A stretch of DNA of 64,000 nt. Source: Antedon mediterranea (taxonomy: Eukaryota > Echinodermata > Crinoidea > Comatulida > Antedonidae). Below, in pieces: positions 3,112 through 44,560 of the stretch. Location of the stretch: NCBI RefSeq assembly GCF_964355755.1, contig NC_092673.1, positions 7,569,001 through 7,633,000 of the forward strand, read 5' to 3'. Position 1 is the first letter of the stretch; each line of letters starts with the position of its first letter. The notes below the pieces were generated by a model, which was not told where the DNA came from, did not search any database, and worked only from the letters and a program-made list of their open reading frames with translations. Position numbers and translations under genes: made by a program.

Positions 3112-3272
3112 ATGACTGGAACACGTTCAATAAAAGTCCTAGCTATATGTGGATTATCTTTTACTATTGGAGTTGTTTTAACATCTATTCATCGTGATTT
3201 TACAAACAATACAATTATACAAGAAAATAAACCAAGACCTGTTGTAAGCACATCGTATTTTGGATCGCACGG
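3112..3272 (+). CDS. Exon 1: start codon and signal anchor
   Basis: ATG at 3112 (context AAGAATGA) opens 53 codons plus two bases. The peptide begins MTGTRSIKVLAICGLSFTIG; residues 9-26 are uninterrupted hydrophobic, followed by HRD and an Asn-rich stalk with a possible N-glycosylation site (NNT). Donor GGTAAAG at 3273. Intron 1 is 584 bp. No longer upstream start was found in frame. Confidence 0.75.
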
Positions 3273-6200
3273 GTAAAGTAGATATGTTTCTATTATGAAT
3301 ATGTATACTAACAAACAAATGCGATACAAGGGACGTCGCAAGGGCGTCCCTTGGCGGGTTGAGATTTCCCCTACTAATTTTAGGCATTTTTCAATCGACA
3401 ATTCGCGTAAGCATTCAGACCAAAACAAGAACAAATAGGAGGTTCGAAATAAGAGAGGCGTAATATATTGCAAAGATTACAATTCATATCGGTCTGGTAT
3501 ATTAATTTATATTATTCAAATTTCCAGTAGATATAACTTTAAAAATGACATTAAAACGGGGAACTACAGAACAGAACTGAATATATAAAACATGATTAAT
3601 TGTTCTGATCAATGGGTTTATAATAAGGTCACCAAAGAGAAATAATAAATATCTTTTTTTCTAATAATACAATACCATGTTTTTAAAAAATAAAAATGCC
3701 TATGTTTCTTGCAACACTCACTGCTTGTAGAATTACAGCAGTATTTTATTTTAGAAGGCGAGCGTGCACAGAAAATGTACACATCCAGGAAACTAAGCTC
3801 CAATTCATACATTTATTAAATAATATTATTAGTTATTTATATATTTATTTTTAAAGGGATAAGCAACATGATGACGATCACAAGTCAACCGATATCGGAC
3901 CCAGAAAAATCTTGCTGGACTGCGGAGGAAACATGGCATCCACGGTGGAGTTATTTAGGGAGACATATCCTGATGGCAAAGAGTTCATTATACATTCGTT
4001 TGAAATCGATGAACGCCTTGCACCATATTTCAGTCCATACGAAAAACACTATCTGCATTGTCCTGTTGGAGTAGCTTCAGAAGACGGTGAGTGATTTATT
4101 ACCTTAAAAGACATTTTACCCTTATTCACCCGTATGGTTATTTCATCAACATGCTACATAATCACATTTTACCCTTATTCATCCGTATGGTTATTTCATC
4201 AACATGCTACATAATCACATTTTACCCTTATTCATCCGTATGGTTATTTCATCAACATGCTACATAATCACATTTTACCCTTATTCACCCGTATGGTTAT
4301 TTCATCAACATGCTACATAATCACATTTTACCCTTATTCATCCGTATGGTTATTTCATCAACATGCTACATAATCACATTTTACCCTTATTCACCCGTAT
4401 GGTTATCAACATGCTATATAATCACATTTTACCCTTATTCATCCGTATGGTTATTTCATCAACATGCTACATAATCACATTTTACCCTTATTCTCCCGTA
4501 TGGTTATCAACATGCTACATAATCACATTTTACCCTTATTCACCCGTATGGTTATTTCATCAACATGCTACATAATCACATTTTACCCTTATTCACCCGT
4601 ATGGTTATTTCATCAACATGCTACATAATCACATTTTACCCTTATTCACCCGTATGGTTATTTCATCAACATGCTACATAATCACATTTTACCCTTATTC
4701 ACCCGTATGGTTATTTCATCAACATGCTACATAATCACATTTTACCCTTATTCACCTGTATGGTTATCAACATGCTACATAATCACATTTTACCCTTATT
4801 CACCCGTATGGTTATCAACATGCTACATAATCACATTTTACCCTTATTCATCCGTATGGTTATTTCATCAACATGCTACATAATCACATTTTACCCTTAT
4901 CCACCCGTATGGTTATTTCATCAACATGCTACATAATCACATTTTACCCTTATCCACCCGTATGGTTATCAACATGCTACATAATCACATTTTACCCTTA
5001 TTCAGCCGTATGGTTATTTCATCAACATGCTACATAATCACATTTTACCCTTATTCACCCGTATGGTTATTTCATCAACATGCTACATAATCACATTTTA
5101 CCCTTATTCACCCGTATGGTTATTTCATCAACATGCTACATAATCACATTTTACCCTATTCACCCGTATGGTTATTTCATCAACATGCTACATAATCACA
5201 TTTTACCCTTATTCACCCGTATGGTTATTTCATCAACATGCTACATAATCACATTTTACCCTTATTCACCCGTATGGTTATTTCATCAACATGCTACATA
5301 ATCACATTTTACCCTTATTCACCCGTATGGTTATTTCATCAACATGCTACATAATCACATTTTACCCTTATTCACCCGTATGGTTATTTCATCAACATGC
5401 TACATAATCACATTTTACCCTATTCACCCGTATGGTTATTTCATCAACATGCTACATAATCACATTTTACCCTTATTCACCCGTATGGTTATTTCATCAA
5501 CATGCTACATAATCACATTTTACCCTTATTCACCCGTATGGTTATTTCATCAACATGCTATATAATCACATTTTACCCTTATTCACCCGTATGGTTATTT
5601 CATCAACATGCTACATAATCACATTTTACCCTTATTCACCCGTATGGTTATTTCATCAACATGCTACATAATCACATTTTACCCTTATTCACCCGTATTG
5701 TTATTTCATCAACATGCTACATAATCACATTTTACCCTTATTCACCCGTATGGTTATTTCATCAACATGCTACATAATCACATTTTACCCTTATTCACCC
5801 GTATGGTTATTTCATCAACATGCTACATAATCACATTTTACCCTTATTCACCCGTATGGTTATTTCATCAACATGCTACATAATCACATTTTACCCTTAT
5901 TCACCCGTATGGTTATTTCATCAACATGCTACATAATCACATTTTACCCTTATCCACCCGTATGGTTATTTCATCAACATGCTACATAATCACATTTTAC
6001 CCTTATTCACCCGTATGGTTATTTCATCAACATGCTACATAATAACATTTTACCCTTATTCACCCGTATGGTTATTTCATCAACATGCTACATAATCACA
6101 TTTTACCCTTATTCACCCGTATGGTTATTTCATCAACATGCTACATAATCACATTTTACCCTTATCCACCCGTATGGTTATTTCATCAACATGCTACATA

Positions 6201-30200: not shown

Positions 30201-33200
30201 TAAAAATACAAGTAGTATACGTATGAAGCGCCATATATGCCAACATATTTATCTTTTTACTAATATTAAGTCAAACTACGGCTGGAACCCCGACTAGATG
30301 AGAGCAAGAAGATAACCCTATAAGCTGTAGAGCTTGTTTCCATATGGGTCCCCGACATAAACAACACCATACATGAAAAATCTTAATTAACAAGCAAATC
30401 TTAATAATAAGTTGCAATTCGTTTTTAACTGTATATTTGAATTGATTATGGTTTCCAATGTCCTTTATACTATTACTATTATAGGTATTATGGCGAATAC
30501 CATAAGAACCAGCCGGTGGGTCTCTCTCGCTCTGCGATGTCACTCATAATTAAAGACGTTAAAACTAAAGGGAGAAAGATGTTCGACTGGGGTGCAGAAA
30601 ATAGAAATTATGCGGATTTTGCAACCATTCATCCAATACAGGCAAGTCTTATCATCTGCAATACGACTGACAGACTTAATTACTGCTTGGTTACTTGCTC
30701 ACTGAAACTGATGAAGACGTGATTGATCAACAAGTGCCAAGGCCAATGATTACCATGTTAACTGTAGACATGCAGATAGATAAATAGCTAACAGACTGAC
30801 TAACGACCTACTCAGTGATTATTTCACTGAGACCTGATGGCTGCTAACTTGTTGCCTCATTGACCATATTACACGCACTGACTGACGAGGTGATTAAATT
30901 GCTTGATCATGTTTAGATGACATGGATGCTGACGCTAATTGGTTATTCACTGATGAAGTGACTTCTGGTTATCATAGCAGTTCCAGGTGACGGATTGACG
31001 ACATCCGGACAGACTTACTGACAATTCTTTGAACTAACGAAATTACTAGATTGACCGACGACATTTTTACAGACACAATGTCCATTCCATGAACTAACGA
31101 TATGACTAAATTATTAGACCAAAATTGTACTGACTCACTGTCCATTCAATGAACTAACGAAACGAATATAGTATGTTTATCGACGAGATTTTGACCGATA
31201 TGTTGTTCATTCAATGCACTGACGAAGTGACTATACTGACCGATGAGATTTTTTTGACTCGATGTCCATTCCATGAACTGACAAAGTGACTAAATTGACC
31301 GACGAGATTTTGACTGATTCGATGTCCATTCCATGAACTGACAAAAGTGACTATATTAACCAACGAGATTTTGACAGATTCGATGTCTATTCCATGAACT
31401 GACAAAGTGACCAAATTGACCGACGAGATTTTGACTGATTCGATGTCTATTCCATGAACTGATAAAGTGACTATATTAATCAACGAGATTTTGACTGATT
31501 CAATGTCCATTCCATGAACTGATAAAGTGACTATATTAATCAACGAGATTTTGACTGATTCAATGTCCATTCCATGAACTGACAAAGTGACTAAATTGAC
31601 CGACGAGACTTTGACTGATTCGATGTCCATTCCATGAACTGACAAAGTGACTAAATTGACCAACGAGAATTTGACTGATTCGATGCCCATTCTATGAACT
31701 GACATAGTGACTAAATTGACCGACGAGATTTTGACTGATTCGATGTCTATTCCATGAACTGATAAAGTGACTATATTAATCAACGAGATTTTGACTAATT
31801 CGATGTCCATTCCATGAACTGACAAAGTGACTAAATTGACCGACGAGACTTTGACTGATTCGATGTCCATTCCATGAACTGACAAAGTGACTAAATTGAC
31901 CTACGAGATTTTGACGGATTCGATGTCCATTCCATGAACTGACAAAGTGACTAAATTGACCGACGAGATTTTGACTGATTCGATGTCCATTCCATGAACT
32001 GACAAAGTGACTATATTAACCAACGAGATTTTGACTGATTCGATGTCCATTCCATGAACTGACAAAGTTACTATATTAACCAACGAGATTTTGACTGATT
32101 CGATGTCCATTCCATGAACTGACAAAGTGACTATATTAACCAACGAGATTTTGACTGATTCGATGTCCATTCCATGAACTGACAAAGTAACTATATCAAC
32201 TAACGCAATTTCTACTGATTCGATGTCCATTCCATGAACTGACAAAGTGACTTTATTAACCAACGAGATTTTGACTGATTCGATGTCCATTCCATGAACT
32301 GACAAAGTGACTATATTAACCAACGAGATTTTGACTGATTCGATGTCCATTCAATGAACTGAAAAAGTGTCCATATTAACCAACGAGATTTTTACTGATT
32401 CGATGTCCATTCCATAAACTGACAAAGTGACTATATTAACCAACGAAATTTTGACTGATTCGATGTCCATTCCATGAACTGACAAAGTGACTATATTAAC
32501 CAACGCAATTTTTACTGATTCGATGTCCATTCCATGAACTGACAAAGTGACTATATTAACCAACGAGAATTTGACTGATTCGATGTCCATTCTATGAACT
32601 GACAAAGTGACTAAATTGACCAACGAGATTTTGACTGATTCGATGTCTATTCCATGAACTGATAAAGTGACTATATTAATCAACGAGATTGTGACTAATT
32701 CGATGTCCATTCCATGAACTGACAAAGTGACTATATTAACTAACGAGATTTTGACTAATTCCATGTCCATTCCATGAACTGACAAAGTGACTAAATTGAC
32801 CAACGAGATTTTGACTGATTCGATGTCCATTCCATGAACTGACAAAGTGACTAAATTGACCTACGAGATTTTGACTGATTCGATGTCCATTCCATGAACT
32901 GACAAAGTGACTATATTAACCTACGAGACTTTGACTGATTCGATGTCCATTCCATGAACTGACAAAGTGACTATATTAACCTACGAGATTTTGACTAATT
33001 CGATGTCCATTCTATGAACTGACAAAGTGACTAAATTGACCTACGAGATTTTGACTGATTCGATGTCCATTCCATGAACTGACAAAACGACTATATTAAC
33101 GTACGAGACTTTGACTGATTCGATGTCCATTCCATGAACTGACAAAGTGACTATATTAACCTACGAGATTTTGACTGATTCGATGTCCATTACATGAACT

Positions 33201-36200
33201 GACAAAGTGACTATATTAACCTACGAGATTTTGACTGATTCGATGTCCATTCCATGAACTGACAAAGTGACTATATTAACCTACGAGACTTTGACTGATT
33301 CGATGTCCATTCCATGAACTGACAAAGTGACTATATTAACCAACGAGATTTTGACTGATTCGATGTCCATTCTATGAACTGACAAAGTGACTAAATTGAC
33401 CAACGAGATTTTGACTGATTCGATGTCTATTCCATGAACTGATAAAGTGACTATATTAATCAACGAGATTGTGACTAATTCGATGTCCATTCCATGAACT
33501 GACAAAGTGACTATATTAACTAACGAGATTTTGACTAATTCGATGTCCATTCCATGAACTGACAAAGTGACTAAATTGACCAACGAGATTTTGACTGATT
33601 CGATGTCCATTCCATGAACTGACAAAGTGACTAAATTGACCTACGAGATTTTGACTGATTCGATGTCCATTCCATGAACTGACAAAGTGACTATATTAAC
33701 CTACGAGACTTTGACTGATTCGATGTCCATTCCATGAACTGACAAAGTGACTATATTAACCTACGAGATTTTGACTAATTCAATGTCCATTCTATGAACT
33801 GACAAAGTGACTAAATTGACCTACGAGATTTTGACTGATTCGATGTCCATTCCATGAACTGACAAAACGACTATATTAACGTACGAGACTTTGACTGATT
33901 CGATGTCCATTCCATGAACTGAAAAAGTGACTATATTAACCTACGAGATTTTGACTGATTCGATGTCCATTCCATGAACTGACAAAGTGACTATATTAAC
34001 CTACGAGATTTTGACTGATTCGATGTCCATTCCATGAACTGACAAAGTGACTATATTAACCTACGAGACTTTGACTGATTCGATGTCATTCCATGAACTG
34101 ACAAAGTGTCTATATTAACCAACGATATTTTGACTGATTCGATGTCCATTACATGAATTGACAAAGTGACTATATTAAACTACGAGATTTTGACTGATTC
34201 GATGTCCATTCCATGAACTGACAAAGTGACTATATTAACCAACGAGATTTTGACTAATTCGATGTCCATTCCATGAACTGACAAAGCGACTTTATTAACC
34301 AACGAGATTTTGACTTATTCGATGTCCATTCCATGAACTGACAAAGTGACTATATTAACCAACGAGATTTTGACTGATTCGATTTCTATTCCATGAACTG
34401 ACAAAGTGACTATATTAACCAACGATATTTTGACTAATTCGATGTCCATTCCATGAACTGACAAAGTGACTATATTAACCATCGAGAATTTGACTGATTC
34501 GATGTCCATTCAATGAACTGACAAAGTGTCTATATTAACCAACGAGATTTTTACTGATTCGATGTCCATTCCATGAACTGACAAAGTGACTAAATTGACC
34601 AACGAGATTTTGACTGATTCGATGTCCATTCCATGAACTGACAAAACGACTATATTAACGTACGAGACTTTGACTGATTCGATGTCCATTCCATGAACTG
34701 ACAAAGTGACTATATTAACCTACGAGATTTTGACTGATTCGATGTCCATTCCATGAACTGACAAAGTGACTATATTAACCTACGAGATTTTGACTGATTC
34801 GATGTCCATTCCATGAACTGACAAAGTGACTATATTAACCTACGAGACTTTGACTGATTCGATGTCCATTCCATGAACTGACAAAGTGACTATATTAACC
34901 AACGAGATTTTGACTGATTCGATTTCTATTCCATGAACTGACAAAGTGACTATATTAACCAACGAGATTTTGACTGATTCGATGTCCATTCTATGAACTG
35001 ACAAAGTGACTAAATTGACCAACGAGATTTTGACTGATTCGATGTCTATTCCATGAACTGATAAAGTGACTATATTAATCAACGAGATTGTGACTAATTC
35101 GATGTCCATTCCATGAACTGACAAAGTGACTATATTAACTAACGAGATTTTGACTAATTCGATGTCCATTCCATGAACTGACAAAGTGACTAAATTGACC
35201 AACGAGATTTTGACTGATTCGATGTCCATTCCATGAACTGACAAAGTGACTAAATTGACCTACGAGATTTTGACTGATTCGATGTCCATTCCATGAACTG
35301 ACAAAGTGACTATATTAACCTACGAGACTTTGACTGATTCGATGTCCATTCCATGAACTGACAAAGTGACTATATTAACCTACGAGATTTTGACTAATTC
35401 GATGTCCATTCTATGAACTGACAAAGTGACTAAATTGACCTACGAGATTTTGACTGATTCGATGTCCATTCCATGAACTGACAAAACGACTATATTAACG
35501 TACGAGACTTTGACTGATTCGATGTCCATTCCATGAACTGACAAAGTGACTATATTAACCTACGAGATTTTGACTGATTCGATGTCCATTCCATGAACTG
35601 ACAAAGTGACTATATTAACTTACGAGATTTTGACTGATTCGATGTCCATTCCATGAACTGACAAAGTGACTATATTAACCTACGAGACTTTGACTGATTC
35701 GATGTCATTCCATGAACTGACAAAGTGTCTATATTAACCAACGATATTTTGACTGATTCGATGTCCATTACATGAATTGACAAAGTGACTATATTAAACT
35801 ACGAGATTTTGACTGATTCGATGTCCATTCCATGAACTGACAAAGTGACTATATTAACCAACGAGATTTTGACTAATTCGATGTCCATTCCATGAACTGA
35901 CAAAGTGACTTTATTAACCAACGAGATTTTGACTTATTCGATGTCCATTCCATGAACTGACAAAGTGACTATATTAACCAACGAGATTTTGACTGATTCG
36001 ATTTCTATTCCATGAACTGACAAAGTGACTATATTAACCAACGAGATTTTGACTAATTCGATGTCTTTTCCATGAACTGACAAGTGACTATATTAACCAA
36101 CGATATTTTGACTAATTCGATGTCCATTCCATGAACTGACAAAGTGACTATATTAACCATCGAGAATTTGACTGATTCGATGTCCATTCAATGAACTGAC

Positions 36201-39200
36201 AAAGTGTCTATATTAACCAACGAGATTTTTACTGATTCGATGTCCATTCCATGAACTGACAAAGTGACTATATTAAACAACGAGATTTTGACTGATTCGA
36301 TGTCCATTCCATGAACTGACAAAGTGACTATATTAACCAACGCAATTTTTACTGATTCGATGTCCATTCCATGAACTGACAAAGTGACTATATTAACCAA
36401 CGAGAATTTGACTGATTCGATGCCCATTCTATGAACTGACAAAGTGACTAAATTGACCGACGAGATTTTGACTGATTCGATGTCTATTCCATGAACTGAT
36501 AAAGTGACTATATTAATCAACGAGATTTTGACTAATTCGATGTCCATTCCATGAACTGACAAAGTGACTATATTAACTAACAAGATTTTGACTAATTCGA
36601 TGTCCATTCCATGAACTGACAAAGTGACTAAATTGACCTACGTGATTTTGACTGATTCGATGTCCATTCCATGAACTGACAAAGCGACTATATTAACGTA
36701 CGAGACTTTGACTGATTCGATGTGTCCATTCCATGAACTGACAAAGTGACTATATTAACCAACGAGATTTTGACTGATTCGATGTCCATTCCATGAACTG
36801 ACAAAGTGACTATATTAACCTACGACATTTTGACTGATTCGATGTCCATTCCATGAACTGACAAAGTGACTATATTAACCTACGAGAATTTGACTGATTC
36901 GATGTACATTCCATGAGCTGACAAAGTGTCTATATTAACCAACGATATTTTGACTGATTCGATGTCCATTACATGAATTGACAAAGTGACTATATTAACC
37001 TACGAGATTCTGACTGATTCGATGTCCATTCCATGAACTGACAAAGTGACTATATTAACCAACGAGATTTTGACTAATTCGATGTCTTTTCCATGAACTG
37101 ACAAAGTGACTATATTAACCAACGATATTTTGACTGATTCGATGTCCATTCCATGAACTGACAAAGTGACTATATTAACCAACGAGATTTTGACTAATTC
37201 GATGTCTTTTCCATGAACTGACAAAGTGACTATATTAACCAACGATATTTTGACTGATTCGATGTCCATTCCATGAATTGAAAAAGTGACTATTGTTACG
37301 GGCTCGCTCGTTAGGCTGAAACCAACAATAAGAACATAACAAAACACGTTGTAGTTGTCGTCCATCTTTATTCATCTCCTCTCTTTCTTTCTAGAGGGCT
37401 CACTTCCGTGTGACAAACCCATCACACACCCCCACTTAAAGAAAGTTTGATATGATTAAACTTATAACTGTTTACTATAACATCTTAAATCTTTTCTTAT
37501 ACAGTAGTGATTTTAACAGGTCGTTGATATGAACCCCGTTCTAATTACTTTAAATCCGTGTATGCCATTAATGCATCACTCTATCACAGCTAACATATTA
37601 TAATTAAATACTTTTAACATTAACAAAACTTTTAAAATCATTTCATGCATGTTATCTAAACTCTTGACAAAGCGTCAGCTACAACATTGTCTTTTCTTCT
37701 GATATGATGAATTTCCAGATTCATTTCTTGAACTGCTAAACTCCATCTCAACAAGCGTTGATTCCTGTCCTTCATTCTTGCCAAGAACGTTAATGGGTTG
37801 TGGTCAGTCCAAACTACAATTGGAAACGGAGTAGATCCAAGATACACTTCAAAGTGCTTTAACGCTGACATCAAAGCTAATGTCTCCTTCTCAACAGTAG
37901 AATAAGGTTTCTCATGCTGGTTGAATTTTCTCGAGTAGAACCACACAGGCTTGTCAACACCATTTTCGTCTGTTTGCGCCAACACAGCACCAGAACCAAC
38001 ATCACTGGCATCAATCATTAACGAGAACTGTTTATCAAATTGTGGAGCCATCAACACCGGTTCGTTTGATAACATCGCTTTAACTTTAATGAACGCATTA
38101 TTGCATTCCTCCAACCACACAAAACTCGCATTCTTTTTCAGCAGATTTGTTAATGGAGCTACAAGCGTTGAGAAACTTCGGCAAAAACGTCGATAAAACC
38201 CAGTCATTCCCAGGAAACGCATTAACTCCTGCTTACTCTTTGGAACTGGGAAATCACAGACTGCCTTAATCTTAGCACTTAATGGTTTCACTTTTCCGCA
38301 ACCAACTTTATGACCCAAGAACACAATTTCTGCACATGAAAACTCGCTTTTCACCAAATTTACTGTCAACTTTGCAGCTGTCAACCTGTCAAACAATGCC
38401 TTAATTCTCTGCACATGAACATCCCATGTATCACTATAAACAACCAAATCGTCTATATAAGCTTCACAGCCCTCCAACCCTGAAATTATACCATTAACCA
38501 ATCTCTGGAACGTGGGTGGTGCGTTTTTTAAACCGAAAGGCATGACCTTATACTGATAAAGACCCATAGGAGTTACAAAAGCTGACACTTCTTTCGCACG
38601 CTCTGTTAAAGGAATTTGCCAGTAACTCTTAATTAGAAGATCAAATTTAGTGACAAACTTAGCACTACCCACACGATCAATACAGTCGTCTATCCTCGGT
38701 ATGGGATATGAATCTGTAGTAGATTTAGCATTAACCTTCCGATAATCAGTACAAAAACGATACGATTTATCTGGCTTCGGAACTAATATACATGGAGAAC
38801 TCCAAGCACTGCAACTAGGCTCGATGATATCATTCTTAATCATGTAATCAATCTCATTTTGTAATACCTTCATCTTGAACGGATTTGCTCTATATGGATT
38901 TTGTTTTATTGGTGAACAATCAGCTGTCTTAACATCATGCTCCACTAACTTCGTTCGACCTGGAACATCCGAAAACAACTGCAGATTTCCAAATATCAAA
39001 CTAACAATTTCAACCTTACGATCACGAGATAAATGACCAACTTTCTCTTCAATGTTTGCAAGGACATCTGAATTACTGAACTTAACACATGTATCCGGAT
39101 CACCAAACTCTTCAGAATTCTCTTCAACAACACACGTAACTGGTGTTGACGTACAGGTATCACTATTATTTCTCGCTGTGTATGGTTTCAACATGTTTAT

Positions 39201-42200
39201 ATGACACAGTCGCTTCTTCTTACGCCTATCTGGAGTATCCAACACATAGTCAACTTCTTCTACTCTTTCTAATACTTTGTAAGGACCAGCAAATCTTGTA
39301 GATAATGGTTGACTGGGAAGAGGCAACATAACTAACACTTCATCACCTGAACTAAAGCTTCTCTTTTCTGATTTTCTATCAAACAATCTCTTCATTTAAC
39401 CTGAGCCTTCACAAGATTCTTTCTAGCAATCTCACAAGCACGATTTAATCGATCACGAAATTCAGACACATAATCTAGTATCGATACAGACTCTTCTGCA
39501 TTCCCTAACAGCCTTTCTTTGACTATTTTAAGAGGGCCTCGGACCGAATGACAATACACCAACTCAATTGGGCTAAACCCTAAGGACTCTTGCACTGTTT
39601 CACGAACAGCGAATAACAATAAGGGAACTCCCTCATCCCATTCCTTTTCACATTGAAAACAATAGGTTTTAAGCATATTCTTAAGTGTTTGATGAAATCA
39701 AGTGACCCATGAGACTGTGGATGGTAAGCACTTGAACTTATATGGGCAACACCTAACTGCTCTAAGACTTGTTTAAATATCTTTGACATGAAGTTTGATC
39801 CTTGATCGGACTGAACAGCTTTAGGCAATCCTACCCATGTAAAGAATTTTACCAATGCTTTAACAACATTCTTAGCTGTAATACGCCTAAGAGGAATCGC
39901 TTCAGGAAACCTACTTGATGCACACATTACTGTTAATAGATACTCATTTCCATTTTTAGTACGTGGTAATGGTCCCACACAATCAACAATAACCCTTGAA
40001 ATTGGTTCACCGAATGCAGGAATAGGCTTAAGTGGGGCTACTGGAACCATTTGATTAGGCTTTCCCACTACCTGACACGCATGACAGGATTTACAATAGT
40101 TAGAAACATCTTTTCGAAGACCTGGCCAAAAGAAATGCCTGAGAATTTTGTCTACCGTTTTATTGACACCTAAATGCCCTGAAAGAGGATCATCATGCGC
40201 AATACCAATAATATCCTGACGGTATCCACTAGGAATAACTATCTGGTGAATCTCATTCCAAAGATCACTACTTGGAATATCTGGTGGCCTCCACTTACGC
40301 ATAAGTATAACATCCTTTATATAATAACAAACAGGAACAATAGACATTTCCTCTACAGAAAGAGCTTGCTGACCAAATGAAACCAAATCAGGATCTTTAC
40401 TCTGCTCTTCCACTAACCTGGACCGATTGAGAACTGTCGGACCGAAATCACACACTTTTGGGTGCTGTTGTTCAGCTTGGGCAGTGTGTGACTCTGGACC
40501 TGAACAGACAGCCTCTTGGGAAACGCGATCCGTAATGTCTCCGTGAAAACTATCACATAAGTCAATACTCTCATCCTCATCTATGGTTTTATTTGCCATA
40601 GATCGCGTCACCGCACATGATGGAAACACATGTGATAATTCTTTCTCTAAACACACCGTGCTTTCGTCTTCAACAGGACTCTTGCACACAACCGGTTTTA
40701 CTGTCACTCTGTCTCCGGCCAAATCATTCCCCAAAAGGAGTGTGACACCCCATACTGGAAGACTCGGAACGACACCGACAACAAAATCTCCGCTAACAAT
40801 ATCTGTTTAAATCCGAATTACATGAAGTGGGACTTCCTTATAACCCCCTTCAACACCTTGAATGAGCACACTTGCTCCAGCAGAAGACTCGTTTAAAAAT
40901 GACAATGCCGATTCTATTATCAGGGATTGTGACGCCCCTGTGTCTCTTAAGACACGAACTTTACTCAGATTCACATCGTTGATCAATGCTACAGAACCAG
41001 TAGAGAGGAAAGGCTTAAATAGCTTTCGCACTTTTTCCGGACCTGAAGATTAAATCAACTTCTCACTTTCATCAACGTCATGACTCTCTGTCACTTTCAA
41101 CGGGACTGTATTTACTAACGTGTTTGGAAGTGATTGGGGTTTCTTATTATCCCCTTTAGCTTTGCTTTGAAACAGCCAGCAATCTGCCTTTATACAGTAT
41201 GACCCTTTTTCTTGCAGTAAAAACAAGTTCTGACAAATTTACTACTACTATTAACTATAGTTTTCTGACTTTGAACCTTAGAATCATCAACAGATTTGGA
41301 AACCGATTTGGTATTGATCACCACCTTGTGCGTGAGCACATAATTATCGGCAGCAGAAGCCGCTTTCATTAAATTATCCACTTTCTGCTCCTCTAGATAT
41401 GTACGAACTTCAGTAGGGGAACACGATTTAAACTCCTCAACTAACATAAGCTCACGAAGCTTTCCAAATTCACCATTTACTCCTTCCGAATTACACCATC
41501 TATCAGAAAGAATCTGCTTCTTACGTGCAAATTCTGTAAACGTTTGATCATAAGGTTTACATAAGTTCCTAAATTTCTGACGATACGCCTCTGGAACTAA
41601 CTCATAAGCTGACAAAACAGCTTTTTTAACCGCATCATAGCTTTCACATTGATCATCAGCCAAAGCAGAAAATACCTCTTGGGCTTTACCCACAAGAGCA
41701 GTTTGTAACAACACAGTCCAGTGTCTAGCAGGCCACTTTAATCTATTAGCAATTTTCTCAAAAGCTAAAAAAATATGTCTCTACCTCGTCCTCATTAAAC
41801 TTGGGAACCCATTTAATATTCTGAGTAATCTCTGAGAATCATTAGGTGTAGAAACCCGTGTGGTGTGACCCATTTGGTTAGCTAATTCTAATTTCCTTAA
41901 CTCAAATTCTTGTTTTTCTTTTTCCATTTCTCTTTGAGTTTGCATCTCTAGAATCTCTATTTTTCTTCTTTTAAAAATTAATTTTTCACGTTCCAATTCG
42001 ATTCTAGCCAACTCGACCTCATTCCCCGCAGTTTTTACGGATTCATGAGTAGTTAAACCAACATGACTTAAAAATCACATTTATCAAGTCATATTTATTC
42101 ATGGAATCATTTATAGATGCTCCAACCCTAGTACCTAGGAGTCGCAAACGCTCCTCTGATAGCTGAGCTACCACCTCAATGGACATGCTATCCAAAAATT

Positions 42201-44560
42201 CCTCGTCAAAATCACTTTCTGACATAGTTTCTATTTGAAACAAAGAAACTAAACAACAGGTTACAATAATAACCAATATGACGATAATTAAGGCACCGGT
42301 AATAAAATACCTGCCAAGCCCACACAGTATTAAACCTACCATGCGCCGTGGTCTCAATAACTAGACCCCTAAAATCAAAGCCAAACCGACTTCTAGTATC
42401 ACAGGCAAGCCTACACAAGCCTAAAACAACAACACAGTTTTCTAGCTCGGCGACCGCCAAACCTCGTTCGTTATAAAACGCCTCGGATCTAAACCTAAAA
42501 CCAGCTTAGAATAAGCAACTAAAATTACCATCAGTTCGATCTACAACTAAAATTCAGCATTTTGTTCCCGGATGACCCCCCAATTTGTTACGGGCTCGCT
42601 CGTTAGGCTGAAACCAACAATAAGAACATAACAAAACACGTTGTAGTTGTCGTCCATCTTTATTCATCTCCTCTCTTTCTCTCTAGAGGGCTCACTTGCA
42701 TGTGACAAACCCATCACACTATATTAACCTACGAGATTTTGACTGATTCGATGTCCATTCCATGAACTGACAAAGTGACTATATTAACCTACGAGATTTT
42801 GACTGATTCGATGTCCATTCCATGAACTGACAAAGTGACTATATTAACCTACGAGATTTTGACTGATTCGATGTCCATTCCATGAACTGACAAAGTGACT
42901 ATATTAACCTACGAGATTTTGACTGATTCGATGTCCCCATTCCATGAACTGACAAAGTGAAACGATATTTTGACTGATTCGATGTCCATTCCATGAACTG
43001 ACAACGTGACTATATTAACCTACGAGATTTTGACTGATTCGATGTCCATTCCATGAACTGACAAAGTGACTATATTAACCTACGAGATTTTGACTAATTC
43101 GATGTTAATTCCATGAATTGACAAAGTGACTAAATTAACCGACGACCCTTTTACTAACTTTTTACTGACAAGGTAAAGATATTGACCGATGACATTTTGA
43201 CTGATTCGCTATCCATTACATGATCTTACTAACTATACTGACTGACGAGACTGTAACTGACTCGTTGTCCATTCCATGAACTAACGAAATTACCTTCGTC
43301 ACACAATGGTTTGTTACTGGCTGTAATTAATTCACCGATCAATTTATTTTCTATTCTATGACCTGACAAAGTAACTAATTTGATTGATATTTGACTTATT
43401 TACTTGCTATCCATTCCACAAACTGTCGAGATGACTAAATTGACTAACACTTCGACGGATTTACTAAATTGACCTACGACATTTTGACTTAGTCGCTATC
43501 CATTGCATTATCTGACGAGGTAACTATACTGACCGACGATATTGTAACGGACTCGCTGTCCGTTCCATGAACTAACAAAATAACTCCGTCAAGCAATGAT
43601 TTGTTACTCGTGATTAATGTCACCTAACAGTTTATATTATTAAATACATCATACTATTTAGATACCAGATTCAACTCCCGGTGAAGCGGGACAAATGTAC
43701 AACAAATGCAATGGTGACAAGAATCTAGCCATTACAGTAAACGTTGGTATGAGCAAAAAACAGGCAGTAAGAGTATTAACTACACTAAAGTCTTATAAGA
43801 TAGAAATACCAGTCACTGTGTTTGTGTTCAGTGAGTTTGCTGAAGAATGGCCGGAACTAGTACAAGCTTGGGCAAAGGACTACACTATTGGTCTTCGTGG
43901 AAATCATCCATATCCAGCTGGACATTTTGAAAAGATGTCTCCAAATTGGATCAGAGAAGCCGTAATTAGTTCTGAAATGCGTCTTCACGAACTCGATATA
44001 ATACCGGTATTTTATGCACCAGCTGAGGACGGTGGTTCAGTAAAGAAACAGCTAAAAAACAGAGGATTCCGTATTATCCAACCTGCTATTAACTTTCCGC
44101 CAAAGTTAGGTAAGACTAATAATCCACACTGAAAGTTTGCATAGAGCTCCTAATAAAAAGAAATAGCCACAACAATAATGTCCTTTAATATTGTGCAACA
44201 CACGACATTGATTATGGAATTTAGTCTTAATGGGAGTATTTTAGACATGACTAAAATCAAACCTATCTAGCGAGCTAACTAATAATTATTACTATTATTA
44301 TCAAAAGTCTTGAGTATGTTTTACTACCGTATTTTGCAGAACCATTACTGACTGTTGAGAATTACTACCGATTCCGAGATGTTGAGCGTATACCAAAAGC
44401 GCTGAGAATGATTTCAGAAAAGTTAAAAACTTTTGATGGTGGAATACTTGGTCTAGATACAGACCTTCCTGATACTTACATGAATCTTGTGTTCTTGCTT
44501 GATTATCTAGTTGAGAATTCTGATTATCATTTGGTATCGTTAAACCAATGCTTAGATTAA
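3112..44560 (+). CDS. FkbM-type methyltransferase / NodB-like two-domain membrane protein, six exons
   Basis: Exons 3112-3272, 3857-4086, 27921-28221, 30485-30641, 43662-44109 and 44340-44560 join into one 1518-nt frame (505 aa plus stop) with every junction in phase. Residues 9-26 form a hydrophobic signal anchor after a short basic N-terminus, so the protein is probably type II, with its body in the ER/Golgi lumen or outside the cell. Residues about 70-283 look like an FkbM-family SAM-dependent methyltransferase: glycine-rich LLDCGGN at 73-79, acidic strand end FIIHSFE at 97-103, family signature KLDVEGAEF at 206-214. Residues about 300-505 resemble a polysaccharide deacetylase (NodB) fold: start of beta 1 at LAITVNVG, GNHPYP at 363-368, and a C-terminal EPLLTVENYY region. 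Classical NodB metal ligands are mostly absent. Substrate unknown; a glycan is an inference from the NodB half. The gene spans 41.4 kb because introns 2 and 4 are full of repeats. Confidence 0.82.
3857..4086 (+). CDS. Exon 2: SAM-binding start of the FkbM domain
   Basis: Acceptor TTTTTAAAG at 3848-3856; the first base completes a Gly codon. An acidic/His linker (DKQHDDDHKSTDIG) leads into RKILLDCGGNMASTVELF, the nucleotide-binding loop of FkbM-like methyltransferases, then FIIHSFEIDERLAPYF and CPVGVASEDG. Donor GTGAGT at 4087 in phase 1. The 53-bp minisatellite starts only 24 bp into the following intron. Confidence 0.82.
4111..7345 (+). repeat. Minisatellite 1: 53-bp tandem array, about 62 units, in intron 2
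   Basis: Units of 53 bp run almost without interruption from 4111 to 7345. They contain TTACCCTTATTCACCCGTAT and ATGCTACATAATCACATTTT. A 48-bp variant lacks five bases in the TTATTTCATCAAC section and occurs many times, often paired with full units. Other variants (ATCCG, CCACCC, TATATAATC, one-base losses) are spread in runs, a sign of local unit duplication. Because 53 is not a multiple of 3, the ORFs in the array are by-products. Confidence 0.97.
7346..8695. other. Spacer in intron 2, nothing recognised
   Basis: AT-rich intronic sequence with short A/T runs, including an AATAATATATATATATTATT tract near 8313. No coding, RNA or transposon signature was identified. Confidence 0.45.
8696..8895 (+). 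repeat. Degenerate short tandem repeat (CATTTCGCCGACAGA-like units)
   Basis: About ten irregular units of roughly 17-20 bp built from variants of CATTTCGTCGACTAGA, CATTTTGCCGACAGA and CAATTGACCGACAGA. Reverse-complement versions lie at 16729-16868, on the other side of the LINE-rich block. Confidence 0.75.
9407..11849 (+). pseudogene. LINE reverse transcriptase, one frameshift
   Basis: Two overlapping frames (9407-10039 and 10005-11849) form one RT. The break is a single extra A in the A7 run at 10018-10025, just after the VIVPIYKK motif of RT block 1; downstream the frame continues RNDLNNYRGISLTSCISKIF. Later blocks are intact: YMAFLDFRKAFDSVW, GVKQGCVLSPVLFSIYINEF and the catalytic FWADDIVLLA. 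The C-terminus has a CCHC-like knuckle, CKLCGTKSDEDNHHFILNCP. About 820 aa in total survive and only this one indel disrupts the frame, so the copy is relatively recent. The product would copy its own RNA at a nicked target. The upstream linker extends in frame to about 9235. Confidence 0.88.
11892..12053 (+). other. Two long G runs in the LINE 3' UTR
   Basis: G tracts at about 11892-11921 (interrupted by A and T) and 12038-12052. Guanine-rich tracts able to form quadruplexes are a known feature of some LINE 3' UTRs. The short ORF reading poly-Gly here is an artefact. Confidence 0.6.
12191..12475. other. Short spacer, nothing recognised
   Basis: AT-rich sequence between the LINE tail and the inverted terminus at 12476; no feature seen. 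Confidence 0.4.
12826..16440 (-). mobile_element. Outer LINE on the minus strand, split by a second LINE
   Basis: On the minus strand the order is: linker KPWITPDILNLI (near 16420), RT N-terminus (FWTHVRNKKTKPAPSVFLIN, 16252-15956; NDWKSANIIPIYKYG, 15959-15615), then SSSPVLSGVP and an LLLILI region near 15400. After the inserted LINE the same RT resumes exactly with its YADD box near 13610, followed by CVLNWSTINRMKLNVNKCKI and RPVLEYGVPAWCIF (to 12924). Several frameshifts and stops. The end near 12830 has a (CAAG)n run that may be its 3' tail. The domain order resembles CR1/Jockey-type elements. Confidence 0.8.
13644..15369 (-). pseudogene. Inner LINE (CR1/L2-like RT), inserted in the outer LINE
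   Basis: The minus-strand frame 15369 to 14239 reads STSKATGIDTLPAKFFKDGA, EWKLARVIPIHKKGSKTVVG, VLDLQKAFDTVDHQIL, GVPQGSILGPLLFLMYVNDM and catalytic LLYADDSAIVV. A slip in an A run (T run on + at about 14246) shifts it into 14269-13979, with TAQNKTVRCILGLEPRDHIG. The copy starts mid-linker, so it is 5'-truncated, and ends in AATAAAG plus an A8 run at the target duplication. Target duplications are ATTAAGGTCA (13634-13643) and ATTAAGATCA (15370-15379), nine of ten bases identical. The RT has all catalytic motifs in one 370-codon frame. Confidence 0.88.
16729..16868 (-). repeat. Degenerate short tandem repeat, inverse of 8696-8895
   Basis: Units such as GTCGGCGAAATGGC, GTCGCCGAAATGTCCT and GTCGACGAAATGGC, about 18 bp apart, reverse-complementary in type to the units at 8696-8895. 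Confidence 0.75.
16869..17599. other. AT-rich spacer, nothing recognised
   Basis: Long A/T runs (around 17010) and no supported gene. Short ORFs here lack any recognisable motif. Confidence 0.45.
17600..18060 (-). pseudogene. LINE endonuclease fragment
   Basis: Read on the minus strand, across frameshifts, this stretch gives GVGIMLNNMQTKVVEVKYVS, then NLLDYCRKENVILTGDFNV-like and GNYGLGNRN-like residues. Those motifs are the exonuclease/endonuclease/phosphatase (AP endonuclease) domain of non-LTR retrotransposons. No RT follows directly, so this is an isolated fragment or part of a rearranged copy. Frameshifts make it non-functional. Confidence 0.6.
18061..18849. other. Spacer, nothing firmly recognised
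   Basis: Contains GTGAGGTGGTTCCCCGTTGC near 18261, which looks like dispersed-repeat sequence, then AT-rich DNA. No gene supported. Confidence 0.35.
18850..19128 (+). repeat. Inverted repeat A, left arm (partner 20092-20331)
   Basis: Reads AGATATTGATGGTATAG, a 26-bp tandem duplication around CCGTTTATAGGTTGTTTTTA, then to TGATATAAATTG. The reverse complement recurs at 20092-20331 with high identity. The last 70 bp also recur inverted at 20955-21018. Confidence 0.9.
19060..19440 (+). repeat. Inverted repeat B, left arm (partner 20634-21018)
   Basis: From GTGTTGGTAAC through AGGAGTTAATTAAAAAAATA to CCGGATATTATAACAATGAC. The right arm at 20634-21018 is its reverse complement over about 380 bp with only scattered differences, giving a potential stem of that length around a 1.2-kb loop. 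Confidence 0.9.
19485..20010 (+). CDS. Three small exons of an unknown acidic protein between the inverted repeats
   Basis: Exon a is open from 19485 and ends FLLEILNDNDEM before GTAAGT at 19596. Exon b (19718-19771, after TTTTCAG) is 18 codons, IRCIEELIDDQNELCNEM, before GTAAGT. Exon c (19855-20010, after TTTTACAG) reads YGVLNISNNEGEETLQLEND, then MVVQGICRIARNKRGDLDEE and ENVRIKTGFLN, stop at 20008-20010. All junctions are phase 0. Each unit ends in an acidic -EM or -DM with ATG directly before GT, and exon c has an internal ATG|GTAGTT that looks like the same donor. The first exon and promoter were not found. Family unknown; it could be a captured host gene or the element's own gene. Confidence 0.45.
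20092..20331 (-). repeat. Inverted repeat A, right arm
   Basis: Reverse complement of 18850-19128, lacking the 26-bp tandem duplication. It begins 82 bp after the stop codon of exon c. Confidence 0.9.
20634..21018 (-). repeat. Inverted repeat B, right arm, with a second partial A
   Basis: Reverse complement of 19060-19440, including the junction to the end of A, so B plus 70 bp of A were copied as one block. 20332-20633, between the arms, is AT-rich with scattered relatives of the internal motif (TATCCGAAACATAACACCTATT near 20390). Confidence 0.9.
21019..21616. other. Spacer with one repeat shared with 29222-29270
   Basis: At 21174-21228 the sequence ATCGCCCGATTGGTGGTGTC and the following ACGGCTGGCAG recur inverted at 29222-29270. 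The rest is AT-rich without recognised features. Confidence 0.5.
21617..21688 (+). tRNA. tRNA-derived sequence (tRNA-Pro-like scaffold), probably a pseudogene or SINE head
   Basis: GGCTCTGTGGTCTAGTGGTA then TGATACTCGCC matches the 5' half of animal tRNA-Pro. The A box (TGGTCTAGTGG) and B box (GGTTCGAATCT) are intact. The anticodon loop CCTGTAA would put TGT (Thr) at 34-36 but lacks T33. The T stem has mismatches (GCAGG/CTCTC) and the acceptor only about five pairs. It is therefore unlikely to be a functional tRNA, but pol III promoter elements remain. Confidence 0.5.
21975..22268 (+). repeat. Tandem array of about 59-bp units
   Basis: Five units carrying TTGGCGATTACCCAAGTTTC and AGGTAATCCATATACTTCTG. 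The same family lies inverted at 26868-27400. Differences among units are few (ACC/CC, GGATCCC/GATCCCG). Confidence 0.88.
22270..23699. other. Spacer in intron 2, nothing recognised
   Basis: AT-rich sequence with two copies of TATACAAATAAACTTTATAC-like motif near 23175 and 23240. No gene or RNA supported. Confidence 0.4.
23700..25990 (-). mobile_element. Tx1/L1-like LINE remnant on the minus strand, interrupted
   Basis: On the minus strand from about 25990: FYKHFWKEIY-like, ELSPTQRRSILNLVYKKG, a region matching NWRPISLLxxDxKIxA, then 25529-25113 with RIRQGCPLSALLFIIVTEIM and the decayed catalytic box QLVDDPILLV (D-D kept, Y/A lost). After the inserted + strand LINE, the frame YKLCQKCNTIEDEKHLIHDC at about 23960 is the C-terminal zinc knuckle of such elements. 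Multiple stops and frameshifts; the RT-to-knuckle connection (several hundred residues in intact elements) is missing, so a deletion accompanied or followed the insertion. Confidence 0.72.
24049..25064 (+). pseudogene. CR1/L2-like LINE RT, C-terminal half
   Basis: Starts mid-RT with SSGVPQGSVLGPALFNIFIN and catalytic VKIFADDTKMF, then EKWQLPFNLMKCKIMHFGRR, YKTIIRPSIEYCSPVW. A one-base shift near 24575 moves the frame to 24605-25009 (VQQRATRLVPGIRRDTYQDR, SRTRGHKWKMN, FFTQNICNVWNKLP). The 3' UTR ends near 25064 in GTAAAAAA. Strongly 5'-truncated and inserted head-to-head into the minus-strand Tx1-like LINE. Confidence 0.82.
25991..26867. other. Spacer, no firm gene
   Basis: An 85-codon ORF at 26068-26325 (rich in K, R, Q) and an open stretch at 26514-26605 flanked by AG and GT (SNLELVRPDPALRDTKLSFI) were inspected. 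Neither matches a known family and the latter would break the frame of the host gene. Confidence 0.35.
26868..27400 (-). repeat. Tandem array of about 60-bp units, inverse of 21975-22268
   Basis: About nine units containing TGGATTACCTGAAACTTGGG and GGTCTAGAAGTATA, more diverged than the left array. The last units decay toward 27400. Confidence 0.88.
27401..27920. other. Intron 2 end, no feature
   Basis: AT-rich sequence leading to the exon 3 acceptor. Only the pyrimidine-rich stretch before TCTAG is functional-looking. Confidence 0.4.
27921..28221 (+). CDS. Exon 3: FkbM core with the DVEGAE signature
   Basis: Acceptor TCTTTCTAG at 27912-27920. The exon completes the Gly codon and reads NMTAFTESAWAPDKGK, a Gly-rich GGGTLYVDKK segment, IPVVDVSKWI and FVIFKLDVEGAEFGIL, the hallmark motif of the family. 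Donor AAGTAAGG at 28222 in phase 2. The first line, GNMTAFTESAW, continues the CPVGVASEDG strand of exon 2, as expected for this fold, so no exon appears to be missing from the 23.8-kb intron 2. Confidence 0.85.
28222..29924. other. Intron 3, first part: repeats only
   Basis: Holds a dispersed repeat whose end (29222-29270) is shared inverted with 21174-21228, and a cluster of AACCGGTTAT/ATAACCG words at 29495-29775. No gene supported. Confidence 0.45.
29925..30070 (-). pseudogene. Small LINE RT remnant
   Basis: On the minus strand it reads VEAFLINQNLYVWLSPNGGI then QGSWLGSVLFIIFTNI, a decayed version of the RT block (S)GVPQGSVLGPLLFxxFIND. Too short and too mutated to classify. Confidence 0.5.
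30485..30641 (+). CDS. Exon 4: end of the FkbM domain, GC splice donor
   Basis: Acceptor ATTATAG ends at 30484. The exon completes Lys and reads YYGEYHKNQPVGLSRSAMSL, then IIKDVKTKGRKMFDWGAENR and YADFATIHPIQ. The only donor that keeps phase with exon 5 is CAG|GCAAGT at 30642, a GC-AG intron with otherwise perfect consensus. Without splicing, the frame runs 26 more codons to a stop at 30720-30722, which would give a stand-alone methyltransferase of about 309 aa. Confidence 0.75.
30723..31216. repeat. Degenerate left border of minisatellite 2
   Basis: Words such as TTGACCGACGACATTTTTAC and TCCATTCCATGAACTAACGA recur every 55-70 bp but diverge strongly, unlike the homogeneous core that follows. 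A similar decayed zone lies at 43141-43600. Confidence 0.7.
31217..37293 (+). repeat. Minisatellite 2: 60-bp tandem array, about 101 units, in intron 4
   Basis: The 60-bp unit contains CAACGAGATTTTGACTGATT and CGATGTCCATTCCATGAACT. Period is exactly 60 with rare one-base indels. Units group into higher-order blocks: 32581-33300 repeats at 33361-34080 (offset 780), and 33361-34320 repeats at 34981-35940 (offset about 1620, sharing the same one-base deletion GATGTCATT). Because 60 is a multiple of 3, one minus-strand frame stays open for up to 224 codons with the 20-residue period LSVHGMDIESVKISLVNIVT; no evidence that it is translated. The array continues at 42719-43140 on the other side of the retrotransposon. 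Confidence 0.97.
37294..37426 (-). repeat. 3' LTR (133 bp)
   Basis: Identical in length to the other LTR. Three substitutions between the pair, near TTTCTTTCTAG/TTTCTCTCTAG and TTCCGTG/TTGCATG. Unusually short for a Ty3-type LTR. Confidence 0.93.
37656..39395 (-). CDS. Integrase C-terminus plus reverse transcriptase and RNase H
   Basis: A 579-codon open frame. It starts with an integrase-tail-like region (FSSGDEVLVMLPLPSQPLST, RFAGPYKVLERVEEVDYVLD) and a linker. The RT follows: IIEPSCSAWSSPCILVPKPD, YPIPRIDDCIDRVG, VMPFGLKNAPPTFQRLVN and catalytic EAYIDDLVVYSD, then FLGMTGFYRRFCRSFS. RNase H: FSLMIDASDVGSGAVLAQ, STVEKETLALMSALKHFEVY, WTDHNPLTFL and DNVVADALSRV at the end. All catalytic acidic residues are visible. 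The product copies element RNA to DNA in cytoplasmic particles. The frame ends only about 230 bp from the 3' LTR with no integrase after it, which fixes the unusual domain order. Confidence 0.92.
   Translation of the reverse strand: MKRLFDRKSEKRSFSSGDEVLVMLPLPSQPLSTRFAGPYKVLERVEEVDYVLDTPDRRKKKRLCHINMLKPYTARNNSDTCTSTPVTCVVEENSEEFGDPDTCVKFSNSDVLANIEEKVGHLSRDRKVEIVSLIFGNLQLFSDVPGRTKLVEHDVKTADCSPIKQNPYRANPFKMKVLQNEIDYMIKNDIIEPSCSAWSSPCILVPKPDKSYRFCTDYRKVNAKSTTDSYPIPRIDDCIDRVGSAKFVTKFDLLIKSYWQIPLTERAKEVSAFVTPMGLYQYKVMPFGLKNAPPTFQRLVNGIISGLEGCEAYIDDLVVYSDTWDVHVQRIKALFDRLTAAKLTVNLVKSEFSCAEIVFLGHKVGCGKVKPLSAKIKAVCDFPVPKSKQELMRFLGMTGFYRRFCRSFSTLVAPLTNLLKKNASFVWLEECNNAFIKVKAMLSNEPVLMAPQFDKQFSLMIDASDVGSGAVLAQTDENGVDKPVWFYSRKFNQHEKPYSTVEKETLALMSALKHFEVYLGSTPFPIVVWTDHNPLTFLARMKDRNQRLLRWSLAVQEMNLEIHHIRRKDNVVADALSRV
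39392..40734 (-). pseudogene. Integrase, frameshifted at the catalytic glutamate
   Basis: Frame 40734-39580 has a linker, then the HHCC zinc finger (GHLGVNKTVDKILRHFFWPG and CKSCHACQ), and the first two catalytic aspartates in RVIVDCVGPLP and VQSDQGSNF. Where the third catalytic residue is expected, after HPQSHGSL, about four bases are missing (near 39705). The Glu is lost and the frame shifts into 39676-39392, which carries the remaining C-terminal part (EGVPLLLFAVRETVQESLGF). The element therefore cannot encode an intact integrase. The zinc finger and core otherwise agree with Ty3-type integrases. Confidence 0.88.
40807..41031 (-). CDS. Aspartic protease
   Basis: Short frame with the retroviral-type active site VRVLRDTGASQSLII and the flap-like VLIQGVEGGY. 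A TTTAAAC context and a stop near 40808 separate it from the integrase frame, so a frameshift mutation or translational shift joins them. The product cleaves the Gag and Pol polyproteins. Confidence 0.8.
   Translation of the reverse strand: MRKLFKPFLSTGSVALINDVNLSKVRVLRDTGASQSLIIESALSFLNESSAGASVLIQGVEGGYKEVPLHVIRI
41190..42357 (-). pseudogene. Gag, broken into three frames
   Basis: The N-terminal frame (42357-42043) has SDFDEEFLDSMSIEVVAQL; the middle one (42011-41781) is a strongly charged coiled coil (REKLIFKRRKIEILEMQTQR). The third (41714-41190) has capsid sequence QTALVGKAQEVFSALADDQC and AYELVPEAYRQKFRNLC, and ends in a CCHC zinc knuckle start, CFYCKKKGH. The stretch 41781-41714 in another frame supplies the missing capsid residues. 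At least two indels break it. Confidence 0.8.
42586..42718 (-). repeat. 5' LTR (133 bp)
   Basis: Partner of 37294-37426. Inside it, on the minus strand, TGGGGGGTCATCCGGGAAC lies three bases after the LTR and is the likely primer binding site; the matching tRNA was not identified. Confidence 0.9.
42719..43140 (+). repeat. Minisatellite 2, right part (about 7 units)
   Basis: Continues the 60-bp array after the retrotransposon, with the CTAT duplication at the join. One unit pair near 42940-42965 is shortened. Confidence 0.95.
43141..43600 (+). repeat. Degenerate right border of minisatellite 2
   Basis: Diverged units (ATCCATTACATGATCTTACT, GTCCATTCCATGAACTAACG) with irregular spacing run up to about 60 bp before exon 5. 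Confidence 0.7.
43662..44109 (+). CDS. Exon 5: NodB-like domain, first part
   Basis: Acceptor CTATTTAG at 43654-43661. In phase 0 it reads IPDSTPGEAGQMYNKCNGDK, then NLAITVNVGMS, IPVTVFVFSEFAEEWPEL, GLRGNHPYPAGHFEKMS and IIPVFYAPAEDGGS. Order and spacing match NodB polysaccharide deacetylases (TFDDG, TFFV, GNHTxxH, RxPxG). The TFDDG aspartates are replaced (TVNVG), the first His of the HxxxH motif is kept (365), the second is displaced by two residues (371), and the motif-3 Arg is Tyr. A non-catalytic or altered-activity domain is likely. Donor TTAGGTAAG at 44110. Confidence 0.8.
44340..44560 (+). CDS. Exon 6: C-terminal end of the NodB-like domain
   Basis: Acceptor TATTTTGCAG ends at 44339. 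The frame reads EPLLTVENYYRFRDVERIPK, then ALRMISEKLKTFDGGILGLD, TDLPDTYMNLVFLLDYLVEN and SDYHLVSLNQCLD, with the stop TAA at 44558-44560. The amphipathic helix plus the late HLVSLNQCL strand is typical of the end of NodB domains, where the barrel is closed. Intron 5 is only 230 bp. Confidence 0.8.

Follow-up and report, generated by a model that had tools for sequence, protein, structure and literature searches.

The 64,000-nucleotide stretch of Antedon mediterranea DNA analyzed here (the window) raises the question of whether a methyltransferase-like domain and a deacetylase-like domain, separated by a long intron, are made as one protein, and what such a protein might do. The preliminary description proposed six exons between positions 3112 and 44560, joining in phase into a protein of 505 residues that carries the FkbM motif KLDVEGAEF and NodB-like blocks. 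This arrangement was confirmed by a trial of splice sites, in which the start was fixed at the ATG at 3112 and the beginning of exon 4 at 30485, while AG and GT sites were tried in ranges of 8–15 bases around the other boundaries, with GC also permitted after exons 1 and 4. A single open combination was found among the sites tried, with intron phases of 2, 1, 2, 0 and 1, giving 505 codons followed by TAA (Table 1). The donors of introns 1–5 are GTAAAG, GTGAGT, GTAAGG, GCAAGT and GTAAGA, the fourth of which makes intron 4 a GC-AG intron. Exon 2 is identified by tblastn matches in all seven paralogs, by its splice sites, and by a Pfam match that starts at residue 75.

Table 1. Exons of the window gene (gene A) and the intron at which its two halves meet; positions are numbered from the first base of the window.
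Feature	Position	Strand	Content
Exon 1	3112..3272	+	ATG start; hydrophobic stretch resembling a signal anchor (residues 1-53, part of 54)
Exon 2	3857..4086	+	Start of FkbM domain (LLDCGGN and FEID motifs)
Exon 3	27921..28221	+	FkbM core with KLDVEGAEF; 8 copies in the genome; PF05050 match over cut-off
Exon 4	30485..30641	+	End of FkbM domain (~W266) and linker of ~20 residues; GC donor; kept in 8/8 genes
Intron 4	30642..43661	+	13,020 bases; junction of FkbM and NodB halves
Exon 5	43662..44109	+	First part of NodB/CE4-like domain, catalytic residues mostly lost; 8 copies in the genome
Exon 6	44340..44560 (stop included)	+	End of NodB-like domain (LxLDTDxPD); 8 copies in the genome

Introns 2 and 4 both contain satellite DNA. 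In intron 2 a unit of 53 bases is repeated about 62 times (window positions 4111-7343), and in intron 4 a unit of 60 bases is repeated about 102 times (31183-37293), with a smaller block of the 60-base unit at 42718-43145. Intron 2 also holds two open frames on the forward strand (9227-11849 and 24025-25006) whose translations, as we read them, resemble the reverse transcriptases of non-LTR retrotransposons.

The genome (354 Mb in 18 contigs) is marked as that of an animal by 38 matches to Wnt exons, which we grouped into about 12 loci; searches with annelid linker, COX1 and mollusc hemocyanin domains gave no match, a result that for the first and last of these does not demonstrate absence. 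Individual exons were then used as queries (E ≤ 1). Eight places were found for the NodB exon and eight for the last exon, and for the FkbM exon there were eight plus a ninth weak match (E 0.35) with an internal stop. The FkbM, NodB and last exons pair completely at eight loci, in identical order and on the same strand, with FkbM upstream in every case. Exon 4 is likewise present at all eight, as found by a search for a shared open segment of the right phase. Gene A, in the window, lies with genes B, C, D and E on one contig within about 200 kb; genes F and H are on contig C8 and gene G is on contig C2. The other seven proteins are 52–91% identical to that of gene A. Scanning the genome with Pfam profile PF05050 at E ≤ 10 gave eight candidates, all of them scored, and these were the same eight loci alone; the best-scored candidates in the corresponding scan with PF01522 (E ≤ 10) were genes A, B, C and H together with one weak match containing a stop, so that further distant NodB genes may exist. 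Among the genome matches listed beyond the eight loci, the only NodB-like or FkbM-exon-like ones are a weak NodB-like match at C1:18875872-18876048 (one internal stop, E 4.0) and the weak FkbM-exon-like match at C10:11549710-11549817 (one internal stop, E 0.35).

The join between the two halves is closely conserved. The donor of exon 4 and the acceptor of exon 5 fall at the same codons, and in matching phase, in all eight genes. At the donor, identity over 15 codons, averaged over the 10 pairwise comparisons among A, D, E, F and H, drops from 0.57 inside the exon to 0.12 outside it, and at the acceptor the corresponding mean is 0.37 inside exon 5 against 0.11 before it. The intron between them, 13,020 bases in A, ranges in the seven paralogs from 213 bases (C), through 517 (G) and 800 (B), to 10,182 (D). 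Directly before exon 5 there is an in-frame TAG, the acceptor's own, in every gene. Exon 5 reaches its first methionine at residue 12 in A, at residue 20 in D, and at residues 30–33 in the other six, so that no separate start for the NodB half is conserved. Since eight paralogs share an identical exon join, in the same order and on the same strand, the existence of one fused protein is strongly supported, close to the limit of what genomic sequence by itself can provide, and it is very unlikely that the join is an artefact of the gene model.

Both halves appear to be under constraint. Values of dN/dS (Nei–Gojobori) are below 1 in all nine measurable pairs for the FkbM half and in all 19 for the NodB half, out of 28 pairs each, the remaining pairs being saturated and several of the measurable values being rough because dS exceeds 1. 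For the FkbM half with its linker and for the NodB half respectively, the values are 0.20 and 0.52 for A-B, 0.09 and 0.21 for D-E, and 0.29 and 0.13 for F-G. The value of dN itself is lower in the FkbM half than in the NodB half for A-D, A-E and D-E, and is not lower for A-C, B-C and F-G. The possibility that the gene is a pseudogene or a chance splice is rejected on the eight copies and on these ratios.

Several further features of the family were seen. Genes F (C8:7969463-7991302) and G (C2:33229278-33234240) are recent duplicates on different contigs, with dS of roughly 0.08–0.15; their last exons lie about 19 kb and about 3 kb, respectively, downstream of exon 5. The nearest paralogs differ between the halves: A pairs with B in the FkbM half (dN 0.018), and B with C in the NodB half, where dN is 0.044 for B-C versus 0.060 for A-B. 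This mismatch suggests gene conversion or recombination among the copies, for which the junction intron would be a break point. In gene D the beginning of exon 3 is partly duplicated: an additional piece of it (stretch L009, ~5678-5743), about 150 bases ahead of the exon, covers 22 residues at 73% identity (E 1.4e-7).

The FkbM half is recognized by profile searches in all eight genes. In gene A, Pfam Methyltransf_21 (PF05050) matches residues 75-221 with 32.0 bits against a cut-off of 22.7. TIGR01444 (FkbM family) scores 28.9 bits, below its cut-off of 37.7, with an E value of 1.3e-6. At E ≤ 0.01 each of these two profiles matches 8/8 genes. The motifs DCGxN and FEID of the S-adenosylmethionine (SAM) site are present in all eight proteins, and KLDVEGAEF is intact in six; in F and G, KLDVEGAE is replaced by KIDIQGGE, that is, DIQGGE stands in place of DVEGAE.

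A tblastn search of plasmids with the FkbM half returned three records, of which the best two contain Sinorhizobium open reading frames (E 4e-9 and 1e-8) of 181 and 199 residues. These align from the first β strand to a terminal tryptophan that corresponds to W266. Since the rhizobial frames end at this residue, the FkbM domain is complete within exons 2–4; about 20 linker residues separate its end from the intron, which puts the fusion point at a domain boundary. Directly downstream of each of the two Sinorhizobium frames is an open reading frame that resembles a glycosyltransferase, as judged by reading its translation, the records being unannotated there. Bacterial and viral relatives were also sought with the family alignment, a search of weak sensitivity in which each of two scans used two short peptide patterns and none was confirmed among the 169 and 140 stretches that matched them.

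For the NodB half, Polysacc_deac_1 (PF01522) matches residues 298-381 of full-length A with 22.9 bits, narrowly missing its cut-off of 23.1, and exon 5 in the genome scan with 25.1 bits, which is over it. At E ≤ 0.01, PF01522 matches four of the eight genes and TIGR02764 (PdaB-type deacetylase) matches all of them. NCBIfam profiles for PdaB and for a PgdA-type deacetylase match A at 5.5e-8 and 1.3e-6, scores that lie far below the equivalog cut-offs. In PDB alignments, for which A, E and H were searched singly, two peptidoglycan deacetylases, 5o6y and 4l1g, come nearest among solved structures, with E values of 4e-4 to 7e-4 for A and only 0.055 and weaker for E; for PgdA (5o6y) the values are 4e-4 for A, 1e-3 for H and 0.055 for E. 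A profile built from the eight members gives E 9e-4. A plasmid search with the NodB half of gene D gave one record at E 8, to which we attach no weight. Modeled by itself, exon 5 gave a structure with a mean pLDDT of 46.5, too poor to confirm the distorted β/α barrel fold of NodB/CE4 enzymes.

These alignments locate the catalytic positions, which for CE4 enzymes we take to be TFDD (motif 1), HxxxH (motif 2) and RxPxG (motif 3). TFDD aligns with TVNV in A, TIEV in H and VIEI in E; GNHTYSH aligns with GNHPYPA, GNHPYPH and GNHPYPT in A, H and E respectively; and the arginine of RPP aligns with alanine in A, methionine in H and leucine in E. In the family alignment, both motif 1 aspartates and the motif 3 arginine are lost in all eight proteins. 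The first zinc histidine is kept in all eight and the second is lost in seven, being kept only in H, where HxxxH survives. By this loss of motifs the domain is classed, on its sequence, as NodB-like and not as a deacetylase, and an active classical deacetylase is rejected because most CE4 catalytic residues are gone. The residues R362, H365, H371, D472 and D474 are invariant in 8/8. Two cysteines, C299 and C503, are also invariant, and would be suited to forming a disulfide bond in the secretory pathway.

The first exon of gene A encodes an N-terminal hydrophobic stretch, with a peak hydropathy of 2.26 over 17 residues. The stretch is signal-anchor-like, and the protein is probably a type II, signal-anchored one. 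A hydrophobic first exon that joins in phase was found in four of the eight genes (A, E, F and G), with the same intron phase as in A; those of E, F and G are either not homologous to that of A or distant from it. A stricter setting returned E alone, F and G appearing after the thresholds were loosened, and as F and G are near-duplicates their first exons count as approximately one case. Gene C has a hydrophobic exon homologous to exon 1 of A (E 6e-14; stretch L003, ~700-860), the end phase of which matches no exon 2 acceptor among those listed; it may use another splice site, or its first junction may be damaged. No first exon was found for B, D or H in the stretches examined around these genes. 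The membrane anchor of the preliminary description is accordingly supported in part: the predicted anchor is supported for the window gene, with in-phase hydrophobic first exons also in E, F and G, and is incomplete for the family.

What would such a protein do? We tentatively favor a luminal, probably Golgi, glycan O-methyltransferase, in which the NodB half would be a pseudo-deacetylase that holds the glycan. Both halves would lie in the Golgi lumen, where the NodB-like barrel would hold the glycan acceptor and the FkbM half would methylate a hydroxyl of the sugar, with imported S-adenosylmethionine as the donor. We infer the Golgi or luminal location, the glycan substrate, the methyl transfer, and the binding of glycan by the NodB half. 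With most CE4 catalytic residues gone, the earlier suggestion of a binding role for the NodB half, in place of deacetylation, gains strength; the further suggestion that the ligand is a glycan keeps the character of a proposal. In favor of the glycan methyltransferase are the glycosyltransferase-like frames beside the Sinorhizobium FkbM relatives, the cysteine pair C299/C503, and the anchor in 4/8 genes. Weighing against it are the KIDIQGGE sequence in F and G, the lack of in-phase first exons for B, C, D and H, the scores under cut-off for TIGR01444 and for full-length PF01522, and the low pLDDT of the exon 5 model.

A wider proposal, which we consider somewhat unlikely as a whole, is that the family represents the animal glycan O-methyltransferases that have so far been missing. 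Its retired NodB domain would have become a substrate-recognition module with a new pocket formed by R362, H365, H371, D472 and D474, and the eight copies would have diverged so as to read different glycans. If true, the fusion would be a methyltransferase with built-in glycan selectivity.

A substrate other than a glycan is possible because FkbM enzymes first became known from the tailoring of polyketides, and macrocyclic polyketides were their first characterized substrates, as described in the cited parts of PMC12085832. On this alternative the FkbM half would methylate a lipid, a small molecule or a peptide, and the NodB-like half would be a general module for binding or folding. We regard this as unlikely, although it deserves to be kept in mind: the partner domain resembles a family of polysaccharide deacetylases, and the nearest plasmid relatives of the FkbM half adjoin glycosyltransferase-like reading frames. 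A protein with two activities, in which the NodB half is still an enzyme with a remodeled metal or acid-base site, could explain why the five residues from R362 to D474 listed above are invariant, why gene H retains the HxxxH pair, and why the NodB half is under constraint by dN/dS, but it must also accommodate the loss of the motif 1 aspartates and motif 3 arginine from all eight proteins and of the second zinc histidine from seven, and we think it improbable. We give similarly little credence to the view that neither half is catalytic and that the family consists of secreted or membrane scaffolds or lectins. The degenerate NodB half and the altered FkbM motif of F and G would fit it, but KLDVEGAEF is intact in the other six, DCGxN and FEID are retained throughout, and pairs such as A-D, A-E and D-E show a lower dN in the FkbM half, with A-C, B-C and F-G as exceptions. 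Finally, it is scarcely credible that FkbM and NodB are two neighboring genes, duplicated as a pair and never one protein, since this reading, which can draw on the distance between the halves (13 kb in the window gene, about 10 kb in D), on the evidence being genomic, and on the different nearest paralogs (A-B in FkbM, B-C in NodB), is rejected by the conservation of codons, phase and identity at the junction, the in-frame stops before exon 5 and the absence of a conserved own start, and by the shortness of the gap in C (213 bases) and in G (517).

The glycan O-methyltransferase reading bears on a gap that has been noted repeatedly. Glycan methyltransferases in animals were stated to be unidentified in 2018, in the cited passages of PMC5936828, and the same was stated for planarian/invertebrate or C. 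elegans methyltransferases in passages of papers from 2019 (PMC6422873) and 2023 (PMC7614267). The 2018 passages also report that loss of a SAM transporter in C. elegans reduces glycan methylation, which was taken to mean that methylation occurs in the Golgi, and they expect the enzymes to be located in the Golgi lumen, SAM-dependent and specific for sugar hydroxyls. For algae, too, excerpts from PMC6344472 and PMC7773692 say that the enzyme has yet to be identified, and the cited passages of PMC8699351 mention no methyltransferase. No description of an FkbM-NodB fusion was found in the open literature searched, and uncharacterized entries with this architecture may exist in protein databases; in the cited part of a paper on bacterial biofilms, FkbM and polysaccharide deacetylase are separate genes (PMC3684757). 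With its predicted membrane anchor, its FkbM domain and its retired deacetylase, the conserved eight-gene family offers concrete candidates for the animal glycan methyltransferases. It is also a clear instance of selection maintaining a dead enzyme domain, probably because the domain binds.

Compared with known systems, the FkbM and NodB domains are each of a known kind, and the new part is their pairing, together with the retirement of the deacetylase half. Genes with an FkbM domain are named in expression studies of C. elegans (PMC9137885) and of a clam (PMC9125321); the domain is what they have in common with the present family, their architecture and function not being given in the parts of those studies cited. 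The glycan O-methyltransferases expected in nematodes, snails and planarians, of which the cited sources name no animal member, would resemble the proposed enzyme, being expected to be SAM-dependent, located in the Golgi lumen and specific for sugar hydroxyls. The NodB/CE4 deacetylases (PF01522, PdaB-type TIGR02764, and PgdA-type 5o6y and 4l1g) resemble the NodB half in profile and PDB alignments, whereas here TFDD and the RPP arginine are lost in 8/8 and the second zinc histidine in 7/8, and the domain is fused behind a methyltransferase. With the FkbM family (PF05050 and TIGR01444) the likeness extends to profile matches in 8/8 and to the DxGxN, FE(I)D and D(V)EGAE motifs, and the Sinorhizobium frames of 181 and 199 residues have the same length and end point as the FkbM half, at approximately 23–27% identity. 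The present family differs from these relatives in its predicted membrane anchor, in its fusion to a NodB-like domain, in inserts of about 25 residues midway through the FkbM domain, and in the DIQGGE variant of F and G.
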